A DNA stretch of 8,944 nt from NCBI GenBank assembly GCA_023132075.1, contig JAGLYT010000048.1, positions 1-8,944 on the forward strand, read 5' to 3'. This document shows, in pieces, positions 1-7,380 of the stretch. Numbering within the stretch: the first letter of the stretch is position 1; every line of letters begins with the position of its first letter. Made by a program: the position numbers and the translations under genes. Origin of the DNA: JAGLHV01 sp023132075 [NCBI: bacterium]. GTDB taxonomy: Bacteria > CBDUZB01 > JAGLHV01. The notes below the pieces were generated by a model that saw only the letters and a program-made list of their open reading frames with translations, was not told the DNA's origin and did not search any database.

Positions 1-201
1 ACACCAAAAGATAATATCTCCTATTTGTTCCTGCCGCTTATTACCTTTTAATGATAAATATTTTCCAAAATTTTTGACAAATTTTGTTTTATGCTTTCCT
101 TTATTCCAATTTTTAATATTATCATTATCATCCGGCGTATGTTCACCGCCGGGATGTATAAATTGAACAAAACATAATTTATTTTCTTTAGTTCTTCCCA
201 T
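1..201 (-). CDS. Conserved hypothetical protein, N-terminal 67 residues, cut by window edge
   Basis: An open frame runs from an ATG (199-201) to the window edge without a stop, so the gene is partial at its C-terminus. It is preceded by a strong SD, GGAGGGAG, at about 206-213. The visible protein begins MGRTKENKLCFVQFIHPGGE and is basic, with no signal peptide or membrane segment, so it is probably cytoplasmic. The short conserved-looking core (FVQFIHPGGEH, then NWNKGKHKTKF) resembles, from memory, uncharacterised bacterial proteins of unknown function; I cannot name a domain. It is the first gene downstream of the c-di-GMP riboswitch and terminator on the same strand, so its expression is probably controlled by c-di-GMP. 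Existence of the gene is well supported by SD, frame and regulatory context; its role is unknown. Confidence 0.8.
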   Translation of the reverse strand, partial: MGRTKENKLCFVQFIHPGGEHTPDDNDNIKNWNKGKHKTKFVKNFGKYLSLKGNKRQEQIGDIIFWC

Positions 202-214
202 ATTCTCCCTCCTT

Positions 215-245
215 AACCTGTCCCCGCGCACAGGCGGGACAGGTT
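215..245 (-). promoter_or_regulatory. GC-rich hairpin directly upstream of the SD
   Basis: A perfect 10-base inverted repeat, AACCTGTCCC (215-224) and GGGACAGGTT (236-245), with an 11-base loop that can extend the stem by two GC pairs around a bulge. It is strikingly GC-rich against the local composition. On the minus strand it ends one or two bases before the SD of the partial gene. On the plus strand it is followed by seven T (244-250), so it could also act as a terminator for plus-strand transcription. Its outer bases are shared with an alternative hairpin at 242-263. Confidence 0.6.
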
Positions 246-254
246 TTTTTAAAT

Positions 255-293
255 AAAAAAACCGATCTATCGTTTTTATGAACGACAAACCGG
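255..293 (-). terminator. Intrinsic terminator downstream of the c-di-GMP riboswitch
   Basis: On the minus strand the RNA forms a 13-pair stem between 281-293 and 262-274 with a 6-base loop, followed by seven U (255-261). Three of the 13 pairs are G-U wobbles that exist only in the minus-strand transcript; read on plus, the same positions are A-C mismatches. This fixes the strand. It lies between the riboswitch and the partial gene, the expected place for an expression platform that works by premature termination. Confidence 0.85.
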
Positions 294-315
294 CTATTAT
301 TTAATTTATTTTTTT

Positions 316-405
316 CTATCTTCGGTAACCCGGCGATCATAGGAATTTTCTCCCTCCAGACCCGTAGCTTTGCGTCCCATAATTTCTTACGGTTTGCCTT
401 TATCA
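316..405 (-). promoter_or_regulatory. Cyclic-di-GMP class I riboswitch (GEMM-I)
   Basis: Read on the minus strand, this leader contains the hallmark GEMM-I blocks in order: GGCAAACC (391-398), a 6-pair stem closed by a GAAA tetraloop, GGGACGCAAAGC (367-378), a second imperfect arm (about 333-365), and GGGTTACCG (323-331). These are the conserved parts of the c-di-GMP-I aptamer (Rfam RF01051). The base just before CAAACC (position 397) is G on this strand; in the family this G contacts the ligand and a G-to-A change there is linked to cGAMP selectivity, so c-di-GMP is the predicted ligand. A good promoter lies upstream (431-459) and an intrinsic terminator downstream (255-293), so control is probably by transcription termination of the gene at 1-201. 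Whether ligand turns the gene on or off cannot be read reliably. Confidence 0.92.
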
Positions 406-430
406 GACTATTTTGTTCCCTACACTAATA

Positions 431-459
431 AAACTATCCCCTATTCATCCATTTGTCAA
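431..459 (-). promoter_or_regulatory. Promoter for the riboswitch transcript
   Basis: On the minus strand a perfect -35 TTGACA (454-459) and a -10 TAGTTT (431-436) are separated by exactly 17 bases. The predicted start lies near 424, about 20 bases before the riboswitch. A short dyad, TTTGTC-N3-GACAAA (452-466), overlaps the -35 and could be an operator. The promoter is nearly the same as the one at 763-791. Confidence 0.75.
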
Positions 460-500: not shown

Positions 501-602
501 TTAGAATTTCTTAACCCGTTCCTCAGCCCTTAAAAGAATCATCAACTTACCCGTTAAGACACATAATATAATTAACAAAATACCCAGCAAAGCATTCCAC
601 AT
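501..602 (-). CDS. 33-residue membrane microprotein
   Basis: ATG at 600-602 and TAA at 501-503 enclose a 33-residue frame, preceded by a strong SD (GAGGGGGG, about 606-613). The protein has one hydrophobic helix at about residues 4-25 (ALLGILLIILCVLTGKLMIL) and a charged tail, RAEERVKKF. This is the layout of single-pass membrane microproteins that bind or tune larger membrane complexes; I do not recognise the family. It sits about 160 bases downstream of the promoter at 763-791 and just upstream of the riboswitch promoter, so it has its own transcript. The SD, the clean hydrophobic-then-charged design and the promoter support a real gene; absence of known homologues to compare with keeps confidence moderate. 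Confidence 0.6.
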   Translation of the reverse strand: MWNALLGILLIILCVLTGKLMILLRAEERVKKF

Positions 603-2382: not shown

Positions 2383-2552
2383 AGTCATAATAAGAAATAT
2401 CAATAAAAGTATTATTCCCGATAATCTTCGAAGTTTTGCTTTTTGTTTTCAAAAGAAAAAATAATATAGTTTTAATTTTAACAAAATTCCTTTTTGAAAG
2501 CAATTAAATTTAGTATAAGTCCCATACAGGCTATGAATGTATCCCACCCCCC

Positions 2553-2581
2553 TTGACAGAGCAACAAAACTATGTTAAAAA
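2553..2581 (+). promoter_or_regulatory. Promoter of the LolA-like/barrel/RND operon
   Basis: TTGACA at 2553-2558 with CCTTGACA context shared with the two minus-strand promoters in this window. At 17 bases spacing the -10 is a weak TAAAAA (2576-2581). A better -10, TATACT (2585-2590), lies nearby but 26 bases from the -35, so the exact start is uncertain. Confidence 0.55.
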
Positions 2582-2622
2582 AGATATACTAGCAACTCCA
2601 AAATTACAACAGGGAGAAACCA

Positions 2623-3396
2623 ATGGCCAATAAAATTATTTTTCCATTACTCTTATTATCTTTAGTTAATTTTCCAATTATAAAAACATACGCAGAAACT
2701 CTTACCTCCCAGGAAATTGTGAATAAAATGAATGATGTCATCAATCCTCAAACAGCACAGGCAAAGGCAAAGATAACTATTATTACTTCCTCCGGAAAAG
2801 AAAGAACTTTTATTTATGATTCTTTCACTAAAGACCGGGGAGAAAAAAATCTCATCCGCTATTTAGAACCTAAACGGGCAAAAGGGCAGGCAATGTTGAT
2901 GCTCAATAATGCCGATGATATCTGGGCTTATTTCCCGCGTACGAAAAGAGTACGCAAATTAGCCACCCATGCTAAAAGACAAAATTGGGAAGGCAGTGAT
3001 TTTTCCTACGAAGATATGGGCTCAGGAGATGCTTTTATTGATGAATATAAAAACAAACTGTTGGGCGAAGAGAAAAAAGAAAATTATAATTGCTACAAAA
3101 TCGAACTGGAAAAGAAAAAAGACAGTGATGCCGGATATTCCCGCTTAATTATGTGGATAATTAAAGATAATTTCTTTCCTGTCGCCATGAATTATTACGC
3201 CAGGAAAGACCCCCAATTCCTTAAAAAAGTTTTAATCCAGTATGAAATAAAAGATATCGACGGCGTTCCCACCGGGATGAAAATGACGATGTATAACAAA
3301 ACCGATAATACCCAAACGAGCATGGAACTGCTGGAAATAAAATATAATTTAGATCTGGATGATTCTATTTTTTCTGAAAGGAATTTAAAAAAATGA
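2623..3396 (+). CDS. Outer membrane lipoprotein-sorting (LolA-like) periplasmic protein
   Basis: The 257-residue product has a signal peptide (residues 1-24, hydrophobic core then TYA before E25), so it is periplasmic. The mature part fits the outer membrane lipoprotein-sorting protein family (Pfam LolA_like, PF17131): a DDIWAYFPRTKRVRKL block at residues 98-113 and the signature GSDFSYEDM at 124-132, followed by alternating beta-strand segments expected of an open LolA/LolB-like half-barrel that shields a lipid. The cargo is not known for this family. SD AGGGAG (2611-2616) six bases before ATG fixes the start. The stop overlaps the next gene's start (ATGA, 3393-3396), so the barrel protein is translationally coupled. 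With the barrel and RND transporter it probably forms the soluble link of an envelope transport path. Confidence 0.88.
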   Translation: MANKIIFPLLLLSLVNFPIIKTYAETLTSQEIVNKMNDVINPQTAQAKAKITIITSSGKERTFIYDSFTKDRGEKNLIRYLEPKRAKGQAMLMLNNADDIWAYFPRTKRVRKLATHAKRQNWEGSDFSYEDMGSGDAFIDEYKNKLLGEEKKENYNCYKIELEKKKDSDAGYSRLIMWIIKDNFFPVAMNYYARKDPQFLKKVLIQYEIKDIDGVPTGMKMTMYNKTDNTQTSMELLEIKYNLDLDDSIFSERNLKK

Positions 3397-4586
3397 AATC
3401 CGATCACGATTCTTTTTGTATTTTAAAGATATTCATTATTTCTTTGTATTTACTATTACTGCCTTTGCATTTATACGCTTCTAAACTGGATATTTACGGC
3501 TATTTCCAACCCCAGCTTACCGGCACTTCTTCCAATGATGATTTTTACCAGTTTTCTTCCAATAAATTACGCATAGATTTTAAATGTGAATATTCAAAGT
3601 CTGTAACTTTTGGAGCTAATTATAATTTTATTCAGTATTCAGGGAAAACTCAATGGAATATGCTGGAATATATTCCCACGACAATAAGTAATGCCGTTCC
3701 TGCTGCCCAAACCGAATCATACGACATTTTATACGAAGATGATATCATCCTGGATAACGCCTATATCAAACTTTCTTTTAAGTATGCCGATATAACCATG
3801 GGAAAACAACAAATATCCCTGGGAACCGGCTATGCCTGGAACCCCACGGATGTTTTTAACTATAAGGATTTACTCGACCCTGCTTATGAACAGCCGGGGC
3901 ATAATGCTTATCGTATTGACTTTCCGATTAACAACAAATACAGCGTACTATTAATCTATTCCCCGGAAAACACATCGGAAAATTCCGGAAAGTTAATCAG
4001 CATTAAAGGAAAATTAGGACATTTTGATTATGCGTTTATTGGCATAGAAAAAGAATTTTTGTTTACTGATTATTTTACTTTTGATGATACAACCCAAAAA
4101 AGAAAAATTCTGGGAGGGGATTTTGTGGGCGAATTTCTGGGGCTGGGTGTGTGGGGAGAATATGCTTACAATCTTATTAAAGACACGGATGATTTTTATG
4201 AATCTGTTACCGGAATTGATTACACTTTTATCGGGGGAACCTATATTATGTGCGAGTATTACCGTAATACCGGGGGCAAAGATGATTATAAAAAATACGA
4301 TTTAAATGACTGGCTGCAATTCATTACCGCCCAGACAAAAACTATATCCCGGGACCAAATATACGCCTCTCTTACCCATCCAATGACTGACTTAATTACT
4401 GCGGGAACTTCCGTAATTACCAGTCTCAACGATGGCAGTCTTTCGTTAATTCCTTCTTTTACTTATAGCTTATTTGAAAATGTAGACTTATCGGTATTTC
4501 TAAATTTTAATCTGGGTAAAAAAGGAACCAACTATGACCGGACATTGGGAGATGGCGGAACAGCGAGATTACAGGTATATTTTTAA
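3393..4586 (+). CDS. Outer-membrane beta-barrel protein
   Basis: The 397-residue product carries a signal peptide (about residues 1-29, core ILKIFIISLYLLLLPL, cleavage likely after LYA). The mature part is rich in alternating aromatic and polar residues typical of transmembrane beta-strands, for example KLDIYGYFQPQL near the N-terminus, and ends in LQVYF, the C-terminal aromatic signature recognised by the BAM complex. The motif MGKQQISLGTGYAWNPTDVF around residues 136-155 resembles porin-like or DUF1302-like barrels that accompany RND/MMPL exporters, but I cannot assign a family firmly. There is no cysteine lipobox. SD AAAGGA lies 10 bases upstream, and the ATGA overlap couples it to the LolA-like gene. 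Likely role: outer-membrane acceptor or pore for the cargo moved by the neighbouring proteins. Confidence 0.8.
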   Translation: MKSDHDSFCILKIFIISLYLLLLPLHLYASKLDIYGYFQPQLTGTSSNDDFYQFSSNKLRIDFKCEYSKSVTFGANYNFIQYSGKTQWNMLEYIPTTISNAVPAAQTESYDILYEDDIILDNAYIKLSFKYADITMGKQQISLGTGYAWNPTDVFNYKDLLDPAYEQPGHNAYRIDFPINNKYSVLLIYSPENTSENSGKLISIKGKLGHFDYAFIGIEKEFLFTDYFTFDDTTQKRKILGGDFVGEFLGLGVWGEYAYNLIKDTDDFYESVTGIDYTFIGGTYIMCEYYRNTGGKDDYKKYDLNDWLQFITAQTKTISRDQIYASLTHPMTDLITAGTSVITSLNDGSLSLIPSFTYSLFENVDLSVFLNFNLGKKGTNYDRTLGDGGTARLQVYF

Positions 4587-4647
4587 GTAAAAGAACCCTA
4601 TCTCTGTTTTTATTAAATAACTTTATTTCCAAAAGGATTACTTACTT

Positions 4648-7380
4648 ATGCGCAACAAAATACTTAAATCATTAGCCGGACTGCATTCAAACCATCCATG
4701 GAAAATGCTGTCATTTGTTCTTGTTTTCACTGTACTCTTCGGGATAATGGCTATCAAAATAAAGCATACTATGCGATGGTCAGATCTTTTGCCGGCAAAA
4801 GACAAAAGGACTATCCAGTTTAATAAAGTACTTGATGAATTTGTATCGGCTACCAGTATTGTAGTAGTAGTGCAGGGTGAAGAAGAAAAAATAAAAGCTT
4901 TTGCTGAGGCCGCAGTTCCACAAATAGCGCAACAAATAGACCCTAAAGACGGGAAACTTTTTTTTAAACGGATCGATTATAAACAGGAAACGGGTTTTAT
5001 TAAAGAACACGGATTAATGTTGATTAAAGCAGATGATTTAAAAAATATGAAAGATGTTTTCAAAAACCCCAATCTCCTGCCTCTACTCACCAATATCAAT
5101 ACCAGTCTGGAAAAGGAATATATTCAACGGGAAGAATCTATCTCCACCCGTGAAAAAGAAGATAGCGCCTTTATGTTTTTAGACGGAATAGAAAATTTTA
5201 TAAAAGTAATACAAAAACATCTTTCCGGCGATTCTGTTCCACTAAAAGATGTTCATCAATCTGCAGATAAACTGCTTACCGGGGAAGAATATATGCTCTC
5301 TTATGATAAGCAGGCCTTAATCTTAAATGTCATCCCCAACTTTACGATGGTAGATATAAATAAAGTCGTTACCGGAACCAACACTGTTCAGGAAATAATC
5401 GATAATTTGATGAAAAAATTTGACGGGGTTCAGGCAGGACTTACCGGCATGGTTCCTATTCAGCGGGATGAAATGGTCTACAGCGAACAAAGCTTAGGTA
5501 TTTCTACTCTTATTGCTTTTATTGCTATTTATGTATTACTGGTATTGGCTTTTAGAATGTGGATAGCTCCTCTTTTTGCTTTATTAAATCTGCTCTTTGG
5601 GGTTATCTGCGTAGTTGGCCTTACTGCTATTACTGTAGGAACATTAAATATAATGACTTCGATGATGGGAGTAATTTTAATCGGATTGGGTATTGATTTT
5701 TCTATTCATATTATCTCCAGCTTTACTGAAAACAGGTCACTGGGCCTCCCTATTGAAGATTCCCTGCAGGAAACATTTCTCAACAGCGGTAAAGGGATTA
5801 TCACCGGCGCTATCACTACCGCAGTTGCTTTTTTTACCCTGATAATCTGCCGCTCCCGGGGAATGAAAGAACTGGGAATTGTATCAGGCAGTGGACTGCT
5901 GACTATTATGGTAGTTACTTTTTTATGTTTACCGGCTTTACTGGTCCTGAGAGAAAAAAGGTTGGAGAAAAAAATTAAAACAGGAAAATTAAAAAAGATA
6001 GTCGGGCCTAAAGATATTTCCCTAAAAATACTGGGTAAAATAGGCGGCCTTTTAAGTAAAAAATATCGCTTAACCATTATTATTTCACTAATGGTTACCG
6101 GTTTTCTGGTATTTTCTGCCCTCAGAATAACCTTCGACCAAAACTATATGAATATGGAACCCAAGGGTTTGGATTCTGTTGAATTACAGGATGTTATATT
6201 GGAAAAATTTGACCTTAGTATTGATTATGCGATGATATTAGCCGACAGTGTTGCAGAATCAAGGGAACTGGCTAAAAAAATAAAGGAACTTCCCTCTGTT
6301 GCTTCCATAGAAGACATATCACTTTATTTCCCCGCAGAAGAAGAGCAGAAAAAAAGAATACCCCACATTCTGGAAATAAAAAAATCATTACTGGCTTCAA
6401 CGTTAAATCAGTCATTCTCCCTGACAAAGATGGATAACCTATTAAAAGAGTTAGAACGCTTAGAAATGAATGTAATGGAAATGCAGGATATGGCTTATTT
6501 AGGCGGCCAGGATAAAATAGATAATAAATGCAGTAAAATCACCGGAGACCCTGACCAGCCTAAATCAATTAATATTATCCGCAAATTAATTAATTTTCTT
6601 CATCAGCATAAAACTGCCGGTATCCCGAAATTGGAAACCTTTCAAAACTCTTTTTCCCCTTATTTTAAAAAAACTGCTTTGCGTATGTGTTCAGAGGAAA
6701 TTATCCGACAAAAAGATTTACCTGTTTCTATTTTAGACAGATATTCTAATAAAGAGCGCACCCGGTTTTTAGTAACTGCTTTCCCCTCAATGAACATCTG
6801 GCAGGACTTAGAATTTCTGGACCGCTTTTCCGATGACTTAGAAAAAACCAGCGAAAAAGCTACCGGGATGCCGGTTATCTTCCGGGCGGTTATTGATATT
6901 GTTGCCCGGGATGGAAGAAACGCTTTAATCCTTACCATTTTTATGGTTTTTATTCTTTTGTGGCTTGATTTTAGAAGCCCTGTTGACGCCTTAATAGCTA
7001 TGATTCCCTTGATTGCCGGCTTATTCTGGATGTTAGGAATAATGAAAGTCATCGGTATGCAGATTACCATGCTGAATGTTATGGGACTACCGATGATTGT
7101 AGGTATTGGTATTGATGATGGGGTACATATTATGCACCGCTGGAAAATAGAAGGAAAAAATGCTATTGATAAAATATTTGCCAGCACCGGAAAAGCTATT
7201 TTTATTACCAGTCTTACCACGATGTTGGCTTTCGGTTCTTTGATGTTTTCCATCTGGAGGGGATTTGCCAGCTTAGGTGCAGCAATGTTCATCGGGGTAG
7301 GCGCCTGCTTTTTAACTACAGTGATAATTTTATCTGCCATTATGGGATTAATTGACCAAAAATCCGCAGGAAAAAAATAA
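4648..7380 (+). CDS. RND superfamily / MMPL-type exporter
   Basis: The 910-residue product has the duplicated RND/MMPL layout: TM1 (about 19-37), a periplasmic domain (40-283), TM2-6 (285-436), TM7 (475-495), a second periplasmic domain (497-755) and TM8-12 (758-905), 12 helices in all. Each half has the conserved acidic motif in the fourth helix of its set, GLGIDFSIH (D350) and GIGIDDGVH (D823-D824), expected to carry the proton relay. Length and architecture match the HAE3-like group of predicted RND exporters, which includes the hopanoid transporter HpnN; these move lipids or hydrophobic cargo out of the inner membrane. The start has AAAAGGA about 10 bases upstream. It follows the barrel gene by 61 bases with no terminator between them, so the three genes are one operon. 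Substrate is not readable from sequence. Confidence 0.92.
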   Translation: MRNKILKSLAGLHSNHPWKMLSFVLVFTVLFGIMAIKIKHTMRWSDLLPAKDKRTIQFNKVLDEFVSATSIVVVVQGEEEKIKAFAEAAVPQIAQQIDPKDGKLFFKRIDYKQETGFIKEHGLMLIKADDLKNMKDVFKNPNLLPLLTNINTSLEKEYIQREESISTREKEDSAFMFLDGIENFIKVIQKHLSGDSVPLKDVHQSADKLLTGEEYMLSYDKQALILNVIPNFTMVDINKVVTGTNTVQEIIDNLMKKFDGVQAGLTGMVPIQRDEMVYSEQSLGISTLIAFIAIYVLLVLAFRMWIAPLFALLNLLFGVICVVGLTAITVGTLNIMTSMMGVILIGLGIDFSIHIISSFTENRSLGLPIEDSLQETFLNSGKGIITGAITTAVAFFTLIICRSRGMKELGIVSGSGLLTIMVVTFLCLPALLVLREKRLEKKIKTGKLKKIVGPKDISLKILGKIGGLLSKKYRLTIIISLMVTGFLVFSALRITFDQNYMNMEPKGLDSVELQDVILEKFDLSIDYAMILADSVAESRELAKKIKELPSVASIEDISLYFPAEEEQKKRIPHILEIKKSLLASTLNQSFSLTKMDNLLKELERLEMNVMEMQDMAYLGGQDKIDNKCSKITGDPDQPKSINIIRKLINFLHQHKTAGIPKLETFQNSFSPYFKKTALRMCSEEIIRQKDLPVSILDRYSNKERTRFLVTAFPSMNIWQDLEFLDRFSDDLEKTSEKATGMPVIFRAVIDIVARDGRNALILTIFMVFILLWLDFRSPVDALIAMIPLIAGLFWMLGIMKVIGMQITMLNVMGLPMIVGIGIDDGVHIMHRWKIEGKNAIDKIFASTGKAIFITSLTTMLAFGSLMFSIWRGFASLGAAMFIGVGACFLTTVIILSAIMGLIDQKSAGKK

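Follow-up and report, generated by a model that had tools for sequence, protein, structure and literature searches.

A c-di-GMP-I riboswitch, probably an OFF-switch, ahead of a rare gene with viral relatives

Closest Described Systems

c-di-GMP riboswitches are usually tied to motility, pili and surface proteins. Cd1 of C. difficile, an OFF-switch that controls flagellar genes, has an aptamer of the same class as the leader described here, and its downstream terminator can coexist with the folded aptamer, both competing with an antiterminator; in the pilM ON-switch, the aptamer and terminator folds are instead mutually exclusive (both according to PMC9262584). As for functions of mobile elements, cdi1_4 and cdi1_5 are c-di-GMP-I riboswitches of C. 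difficile prophages that precede type I antitoxin RNAs; less downstream transcript is reported for them at high c-di-GMP, and a report of insensitivity is cited as well (PMC7699646).

Two further systems touch on phage defence. In C. difficile, transcription stops early in the abiF leader RNA (RCd22, RF03085 motif), which lies ahead of a gene for phage defence; this leader belongs to an RNA family different from that of the present leader, and the excerpt of PMC12373285 that describes it makes no mention of c-di-GMP sensing. Regarding the anti-phage dCTP deaminases (PADLOC dCTPase; NF041025; AvcID type), a homologue of which is found in the sister genome, AvcD is kept in check by an antitoxin RNA (PMC10511110). 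No report of a c-di-GMP riboswitch before the gene of a phage-defence protein was found among the papers listed by searches of the open-access literature, some of whose listings covered a part of the matching papers (in one case 10 of 1,246), as judged mostly by titles and the first lines of abstracts.

The window considered here, that is, the whole stretch of DNA that was analyzed, is a complete contig of 8,944 bases (C333) from a genome, G000, assembled in 389 contigs and 86.7% complete. Our reading of the locus, to which we give a probability of about one half, is that a c-di-GMP-I OFF-switch controls one rare gene, whose product is probably PUA-like and would act in the contest with phages. 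Differently from Cd1 and its flagellar genes, the product of the window gene is unclassified and has its relatives in viruses, and the proposed antiterminator of the leader uses the 5′ strand of the aptamer; differently from cdi1_4 and cdi1_5, whose target is a prophage antisense antitoxin RNA, the target is a chromosomal protein gene and, in a sister genome, a nuclease-deaminase operon. The aptamer itself is an ordinary member of the c-di-GMP-I class; the new part is the phage-linked target family together with the copied set of leaders.

Aptamer, Promoter and Ligand

On the minus strand, the elements follow one another in the order promoter, aptamer (408-321), A-rich linker, terminator (295-260), second hairpin (245-215), AAGGAGG (214-208) and ATG (201). 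An earlier note on this DNA had placed a c-di-GMP-I (GEMM-I) riboswitch on this strand, and a covariance search bears it out: RF01051 matches 408-321 on the minus strand (81 bits, cut-off 35; E 3.3e-15), the full model is aligned (1-87 of 87), the alignment marks no non-standard pair in the consensus helices, and RF01051 is the top Rfam match within its clan. The predicted fold of the leader (430-200) lies 5.2 standard deviations below those of dinucleotide shuffles; a chance origin of the aptamer and its leader is excluded by the covariance score, by this comparison with shuffles, and by conservation in the sister genome. The outer limits proposed in the earlier note, 199-459, fit as well, with TTGACA at 459-454 and the ATG at 201-199. 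TTGACA is the −35 element, and a weak −10 element, read from the sequence as TAGTTT (436-431, minus strand), follows it after a 17-nt spacer.

A covariance scan of G000 returned 12 RF01051 matches, all above the cut-off, of which the window aptamer is the top scorer. Among 97 other genomes listed, G001 and G002 are the two relatives that share more than the domain with G000; the first has 12 matches, 12 of them above the cut-off, and the second 19, with 18 above it, and the set used below consists of the 42 aptamers above the cut-off from the three genomes. GGDEF matches number 7, 8 and 9 in G000, G001 and G002, respectively, so c-di-GMP signalling is likely present. In a tree of the 42 aptamers, that of the window and those of three leaders from G002, named after their contigs (G002:C142, G002:C183 and G002:C48), form one clade with a support of 0.998; members of this clade, hereafter the four sister leaders, are 82-92% identical to one another, and their identity with the remaining aptamers does not exceed 68%. 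TTGACA is invariant in their promoters, which also have the bases just after it in common, and at the −10 place the other sister leaders carry TATTTT or TACATT. The aptamer of G002:C48 obtains its best E-value with a sister family, RF03167 (c-di-GMP-I-GGC).

As for the ligand, the second G of GGCAAA, at position 397 (minus strand), is predicted to contact it, and we place this base at G20 of the crystal numbering; a G occupies the equivalent position in 42 of the 42 aptamers. Since a GEMM-I aptamer in complex with cGAMP was obtained with the change G20A (PMC6274999), the ligand predicted from the sequence is c-di-GMP, as the earlier note had read from the same base. That the aptamer senses 3′,3′-cGAMP instead is very improbable: the aptamers of cGAMP riboswitches do closely resemble those of c-di-GMP riboswitches, under which they were originally filed (PMC9262584), against which stand the G, the c-di-GMP form, at 397 and the first rank of RF01051 within its clan.

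Two other features of the window were observed outside the leader. Just upstream of the riboswitch promoter, at 501-602 (minus strand), lies a reading frame for a membrane-like microprotein of 33 residues (MWNALLGILLIILCVLTGKLMILLRAEERVKKF); it is kept in both species, and a matching stretch occurs upstream of the leader in L014, at about 480-585. On the plus strand, 2623-7380 holds three genes in a row, encoding a LolA-like protein, an unclassified protein of 397 residues and an MMPL-type transporter, a run likely devoted to lipid or outer-membrane transport.

Terminator, Second Hairpin and Gene Start

The intrinsic terminator, found both by terminator calling and by folding, spans 295-260 (minus strand) and consists of a 15-pair stem followed by TTTTTATTTA, with a T-rich tail at 259-250; it was called on the minus strand only, in agreement with the strand specificity that had been noticed beforehand, and its energy, taken alone, is −17.6 kcal/mol. 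Terminator-like sites in the region number two, against 0.5 expected in shuffles, and the other one is the second hairpin as read on the plus strand.

This second hairpin, AACCTGTCCC...GGGACAGGTT (245-215, minus strand), was detected by folding between the terminator and the ribosome-binding site; like the viral relatives and the candidate anti-phage operon described below, it goes beyond the account in the earlier note. A comparison of the four sister leaders found it kept in G002:C142 and, with changed pairs, in G002:C183, each with 12 pairs, and absent from G002:C48; the window form has 12 pairs and one bulge. It resembles, we presume, a palindrome of mobile elements, and may be one; alternatively, it may guard against opposite transcription, because on the plus strand it reads as terminator-like, with a T run at its end. 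We attribute no part in the switching to it. The pattern CCTGTCCC...GGGACAGG has one further occurrence in the three genomes, before another gene in G002:C96 (3382-3408; L081, L083), and this gene is deacetylase-like by eye. Strings of AACGTCCCCTATG, noted near the G002:C96 hairpin and also ahead of the leader in G002:C183, are a hint of palindromes from mobile elements.

The ribosome-binding site AAGGAGG (214-208, minus strand) is read in three of the four sister leaders. In the window, it is followed by the ATG at 201-199, which opens the controlled gene (201-1, minus strand); only the first 67 codons are present, the rest being cut by the contig end, and the orthologue in G002 has 312 residues.

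Predicted Switching Mechanism

The window leader is probably an OFF-switch, acting on the transcription of one gene. In the absence of c-di-GMP, the terminator's 5′ arm would pair with the aptamer strand GGCAAACCG (398-390, minus strand), which would prevent termination and allow the gene to be expressed; with c-di-GMP bound, this strand would stay within the aptamer, the terminator would form, and transcription would stop. This direction is predicted because the aptamer (321-408) and the terminator (260-295) have no bases in common, as in Cd1 and unlike pilM (PMC9262584).

In minimum-energy folds of growing window transcripts, pairs with the aptamer arm are absent until 36 nt past the aptamer; later transcripts, ending before the 3′ arm of the terminator, have 9-12 of them, with a core of nine pairs between GGCAAACCG (398-390) and the terminator stretch CGGUUUGUC (292-284, minus strand), the proposed switching strand, and this pairing ends once the terminator's own stem takes over. 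The alternative fold appears at some transcript lengths only, two of four in one test series. Among the sister leaders, G002:C142 forms 10-11 such pairs, partly other ones, G002:C183 forms five, also using other pairs, and G002:C48 has none in its growing-transcript folds; a competing antiterminator is thus predicted in three of the four. A swap test on 21 leaders with a good terminator gave averages of −16.2 kcal/mol for own and −15.0 kcal/mol for swapped pairings of arm and aptamer, a slight difference, with a permutation p of 0.016 that is generous because the 21 leaders are related. Against the other aptamers, the window arm ranked 7 of 21; its antiterminator is not specific, since GGCAAACC is common to many aptamers.

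These last values are among the data that would suit an ON-switch, or a terminator not governed by the ligand, so that c-di-GMP would increase expression or have no effect: the antiterminator of the window is weak in the swap test, that of G002:C48 is missing, the terminator is stable by itself at −17.6 kcal/mol, and a sister copy of the promoter that has lost most of the aptamer (G002:C143) still precedes a gene. We regard both variants as unlikely, given that the aptamer and terminator do not overlap as they do in pilM (PMC9262584), that termination in the presence of ligand is described for the majority of the C. difficile c-di-GMP riboswitches of type I (PMC7699646), and that the aptamer is retained at 75-82 bits in four leaders. 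The OFF direction is the more probable one.

Five leaders (L008, L009, L030, L040 and L044) carry a second copy of the aptamer 3′ strand (GCCGGGTTRCCGA or GCCGAGCTACCGA) after the first; in L009, L040 and L044, this second copy is the 5′ arm of the terminator, as if the switching were done by strand exchange between the two copies.

Sister Leaders and Their Targets

The link between riboswitch and gene holds, and the sister genome also has this leader ahead of the orthologue. The G002:C142 aptamer, which scores 82.2 bits with RF01051, stands before an open frame that is 86% identical to the window gene over its first 67 residues, and this frame encodes 312 residues from an ATG behind an identical AAGGAGG; it also supplied the full-length protein used in the searches below.

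The remaining leaders of the clade precede other genes. From the end of the G002:C183 leader, 120 nt lead to a gene with a match to PADLOC PDC-S02 (5e-44), whose product has nuclease parts recognized by Pfam as YhcG_C and NucS_C and is EVE-like by eye. After a gap of 51 nt, a second gene matches PADLOC dCTPase (1.4e-94); the protein has 747 residues and, with the NCBIfam anti-phage model NF041025, scores 282.3 bits, which is below the cut-off of 400. The target of the G002:C48 leader is a gene for a protein of 216 residues that looks hydrophobic by eye, and a TrwC-relaxase gene follows; searches of four libraries and of plasmids gave nothing usable for this protein. Finally, a fifth copy in G002:C143 (3397-3455; L078) has kept the promoter and the untranslated start but little of the aptamer; located before a gene that is lipoprotein-like by eye, it is a natural riboswitch-free sibling. 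Because the leaders of the clade and the G002:C143 copy stand before unlike genes, the promoter and riboswitch appear to have been copied as a unit, and at least one set of targets is defence-like.

The Controlled Protein Family

The earlier note had described the gene as a conserved hypothetical with no known function; the lack of a convincing family match stands, while "conserved" is too broad for a family that is rare in the data searched, being limited to two genomes of the genus, three viral contigs and one broken plasmid copy. The 67-residue piece of the window had no match in Pfam, and the 312-residue orthologue had none in NCBIfam and none in PADLOC, even with E values of up to 1 admitted; the matches that it did obtain to known families, DUF7219 in Pfam (0.027), phrog_8768 in PHROGs (0.042) and MutL in the PDB (0.35), were taken as chance. 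Beyond G000 and G002, only weak matches were found in the 386 genomes, one in G365 with a single protein as query (E 9.5e-4) and one, with a four-row profile, to a fragment with a stop in G022 (E 3.5e-5); profile matches to casein kinases (E 0.001) looked spurious and were dropped. Two members of the family, used as separate queries, found no relative among 50,697 phage records. On plasmids, tblastn gave one match, in CP101711 of Synechocystis sp. B12 (37% identity, E 1e-25); this plasmid relative (CP101711.1, 55957-56845; L057) is frameshifted.

In viral contigs, the single-protein query found no relative, and a two-row profile found three, the same three as a four-row profile. In two of them, L058 and L059, an RGP-like gene lies directly downstream of the relative (E 7.3e-6 and 1.3e-6, respectively). 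Upstream, L058 has a TET-associated glycosyltransferase (TAGT) gene one gene further off (E 6.7e-39), with a radical-SAM gene in between, and it also encodes a PAPS-reductase; L059 has two TAGT copies (E 3.2e-34 and 9.2e-27), the nearer of which overlaps the start of the relative. The TAGT protein of L058 matches the PHROG named beta-glucosyl-HMC-alpha-glucosyltransferase (5.4e-48), which points to DNA glycosylation; judging from these matches, the relative lies in both contigs between glycosyltransferase genes of what looks like the DNA-hypermodification type. In L060, a contig of 9.3 kb, two neighbours were scanned, one being of Fic type and the other without a match.

Regarding the fold, a structure model built from a single sequence was useless (pLDDT 31), and one from four sequences was poor, with a pTM of 0.54 and a mean pLDDT of 45. 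Seven of the first eight Foldseek rows for it were ASCH proteins, at E 1 or worse, with no match reaching E 0.001, and the Pfam scan of the 312-residue orthologue gave neither ASCH nor EVE. In a second structure comparison (VIA), ZmASCH came first (Z 4.3, rmsd 4.3, 120 residues aligned), followed by the N-terminal domain of McrB (2.8), PH0355 (2.7) and THYN1 with 5-methylcytosine DNA (2.5); all these values are below the level of advised trust, a VIA Z below 8 possibly meaning merely a common arrangement. These proteins account for seven of the 11 rows (four of them ASCH) and have the PUA-like fold, the other four rows being different proteins at Z 2.2-2.4, and the structure listings gave no usable score for any other family. 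With low confidence, the four-sequence model thus makes the protein lean to the ASCH/EVE (PUA-like) fold, a lead that fits the DNA-hypermodification neighbourhoods of the viral relatives. We infer that the gene product is rare, probably has a PUA-like domain of ASCH/EVE type, and belongs to a family that viruses carry inside clusters of DNA-hypermodification type; its most likely role would be to read or process modified DNA bases, a phage-contest function exerted at low c-di-GMP, when the protein would be made. An unclassified family common to viruses with glycosyltransferase clusters and a bacterial chromosome is worth a structure and a phage assay.

A Possible Link to Phage Defence

The gene may have another origin, namely cargo of a phage or plasmid with a private role, such as making a modified base, that was caught beside a duplicated promoter-riboswitch unit of the host; c-di-GMP control would then have no link with defence. 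This is quite possible, if short of probable. Clear relatives outside the genus are in viral contigs or on a plasmid, the second hairpin is like a mobile-element palindrome, presumably, and has one further copy in G002, and the G002:C48 leader stands upstream of the 216-residue gene and a TrwC-relaxase gene. However, two species retain both the gene and the leader, with 86% identity over the shared part of the protein, which suggests selection in the host, and no TAGT-like gene was seen by eye among 10 open frames of at least 100 residues in the first 12 kb of G002:C142, two of which were domain-scanned; one neighbour there is radical-SAM-like, a kind of gene also present in L058.

The preferred reading, an OFF-switch on a phage-contest gene, can be extended to the whole clade: in this uncultured lineage, the promoter and the c-di-GMP-I OFF-switch would have been copied as a unit before immunity genes whose products recognize or degrade modified phage DNA, that is, the window family, the PDC-S02 nuclease with the deaminase, and the 216-residue putative membrane protein, with immunity on at low c-di-GMP (free-living) and off at high c-di-GMP (surface-attached). 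This wider proposal is doubtful. One clear defence-like operon is the total found behind leaders of this kind, since the window family matches no defence model, the G000 deaminase homologue has no such riboswitch, and the targets of other leaders are mostly negative. Outside the clade, PADLOC was run on 16 downstream genes of 38 leaders, including 10 of the 11 other G000 leaders (L011 was left out), and L004 alone gave matches, to subtilase (4e-32) and IetS (3.9e-6). For 10 of the 11 other G000 target genes, Pfam gave DUF7305 twice, subtilase, one weak match of DUF4388 type, and no match for six; many targets of other leaders start like pilins or secreted proteins, by eye.

As for the deaminase, homologues at 1e-20 are limited, among the 386 genomes, to G000 and G002. 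The G000 homologue (contig C246) is in two pieces, 70% and 48% identical, has its own PDC-S02 protein and no riboswitch; it is a different arrangement of the nuclease-deaminase kind of module, and its riboswitch-free state tempers the defence reading. In viral contigs, no deaminase relative was found with a single-protein query, which reaches close relatives only, and one core aptamer pattern, searched for as exact matches only, was not found. If the proposal were true, a second messenger of lifestyle would gate phage defence through RNA; a branch of riboswitches on phage-linked genes would tie the decision between sessile and free life to phage defence, and the data hint that this lineage ties virus-related genes to the lifestyle signal.

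Two neighbourhoods were recorded in addition. G000:C246 (L070), between 2077 and 8795, has in a row a gene for an unclassified protein of 500 residues, the deaminase, a PDC-S02 gene of EVE/Mrr type and TPR genes. About 570 nt behind the G002 orthologue of the window gene, L047 has at 2392-3786 an ATPase_2/DUF234 gene that matches PADLOC PDC-S27 (3.1e-42).
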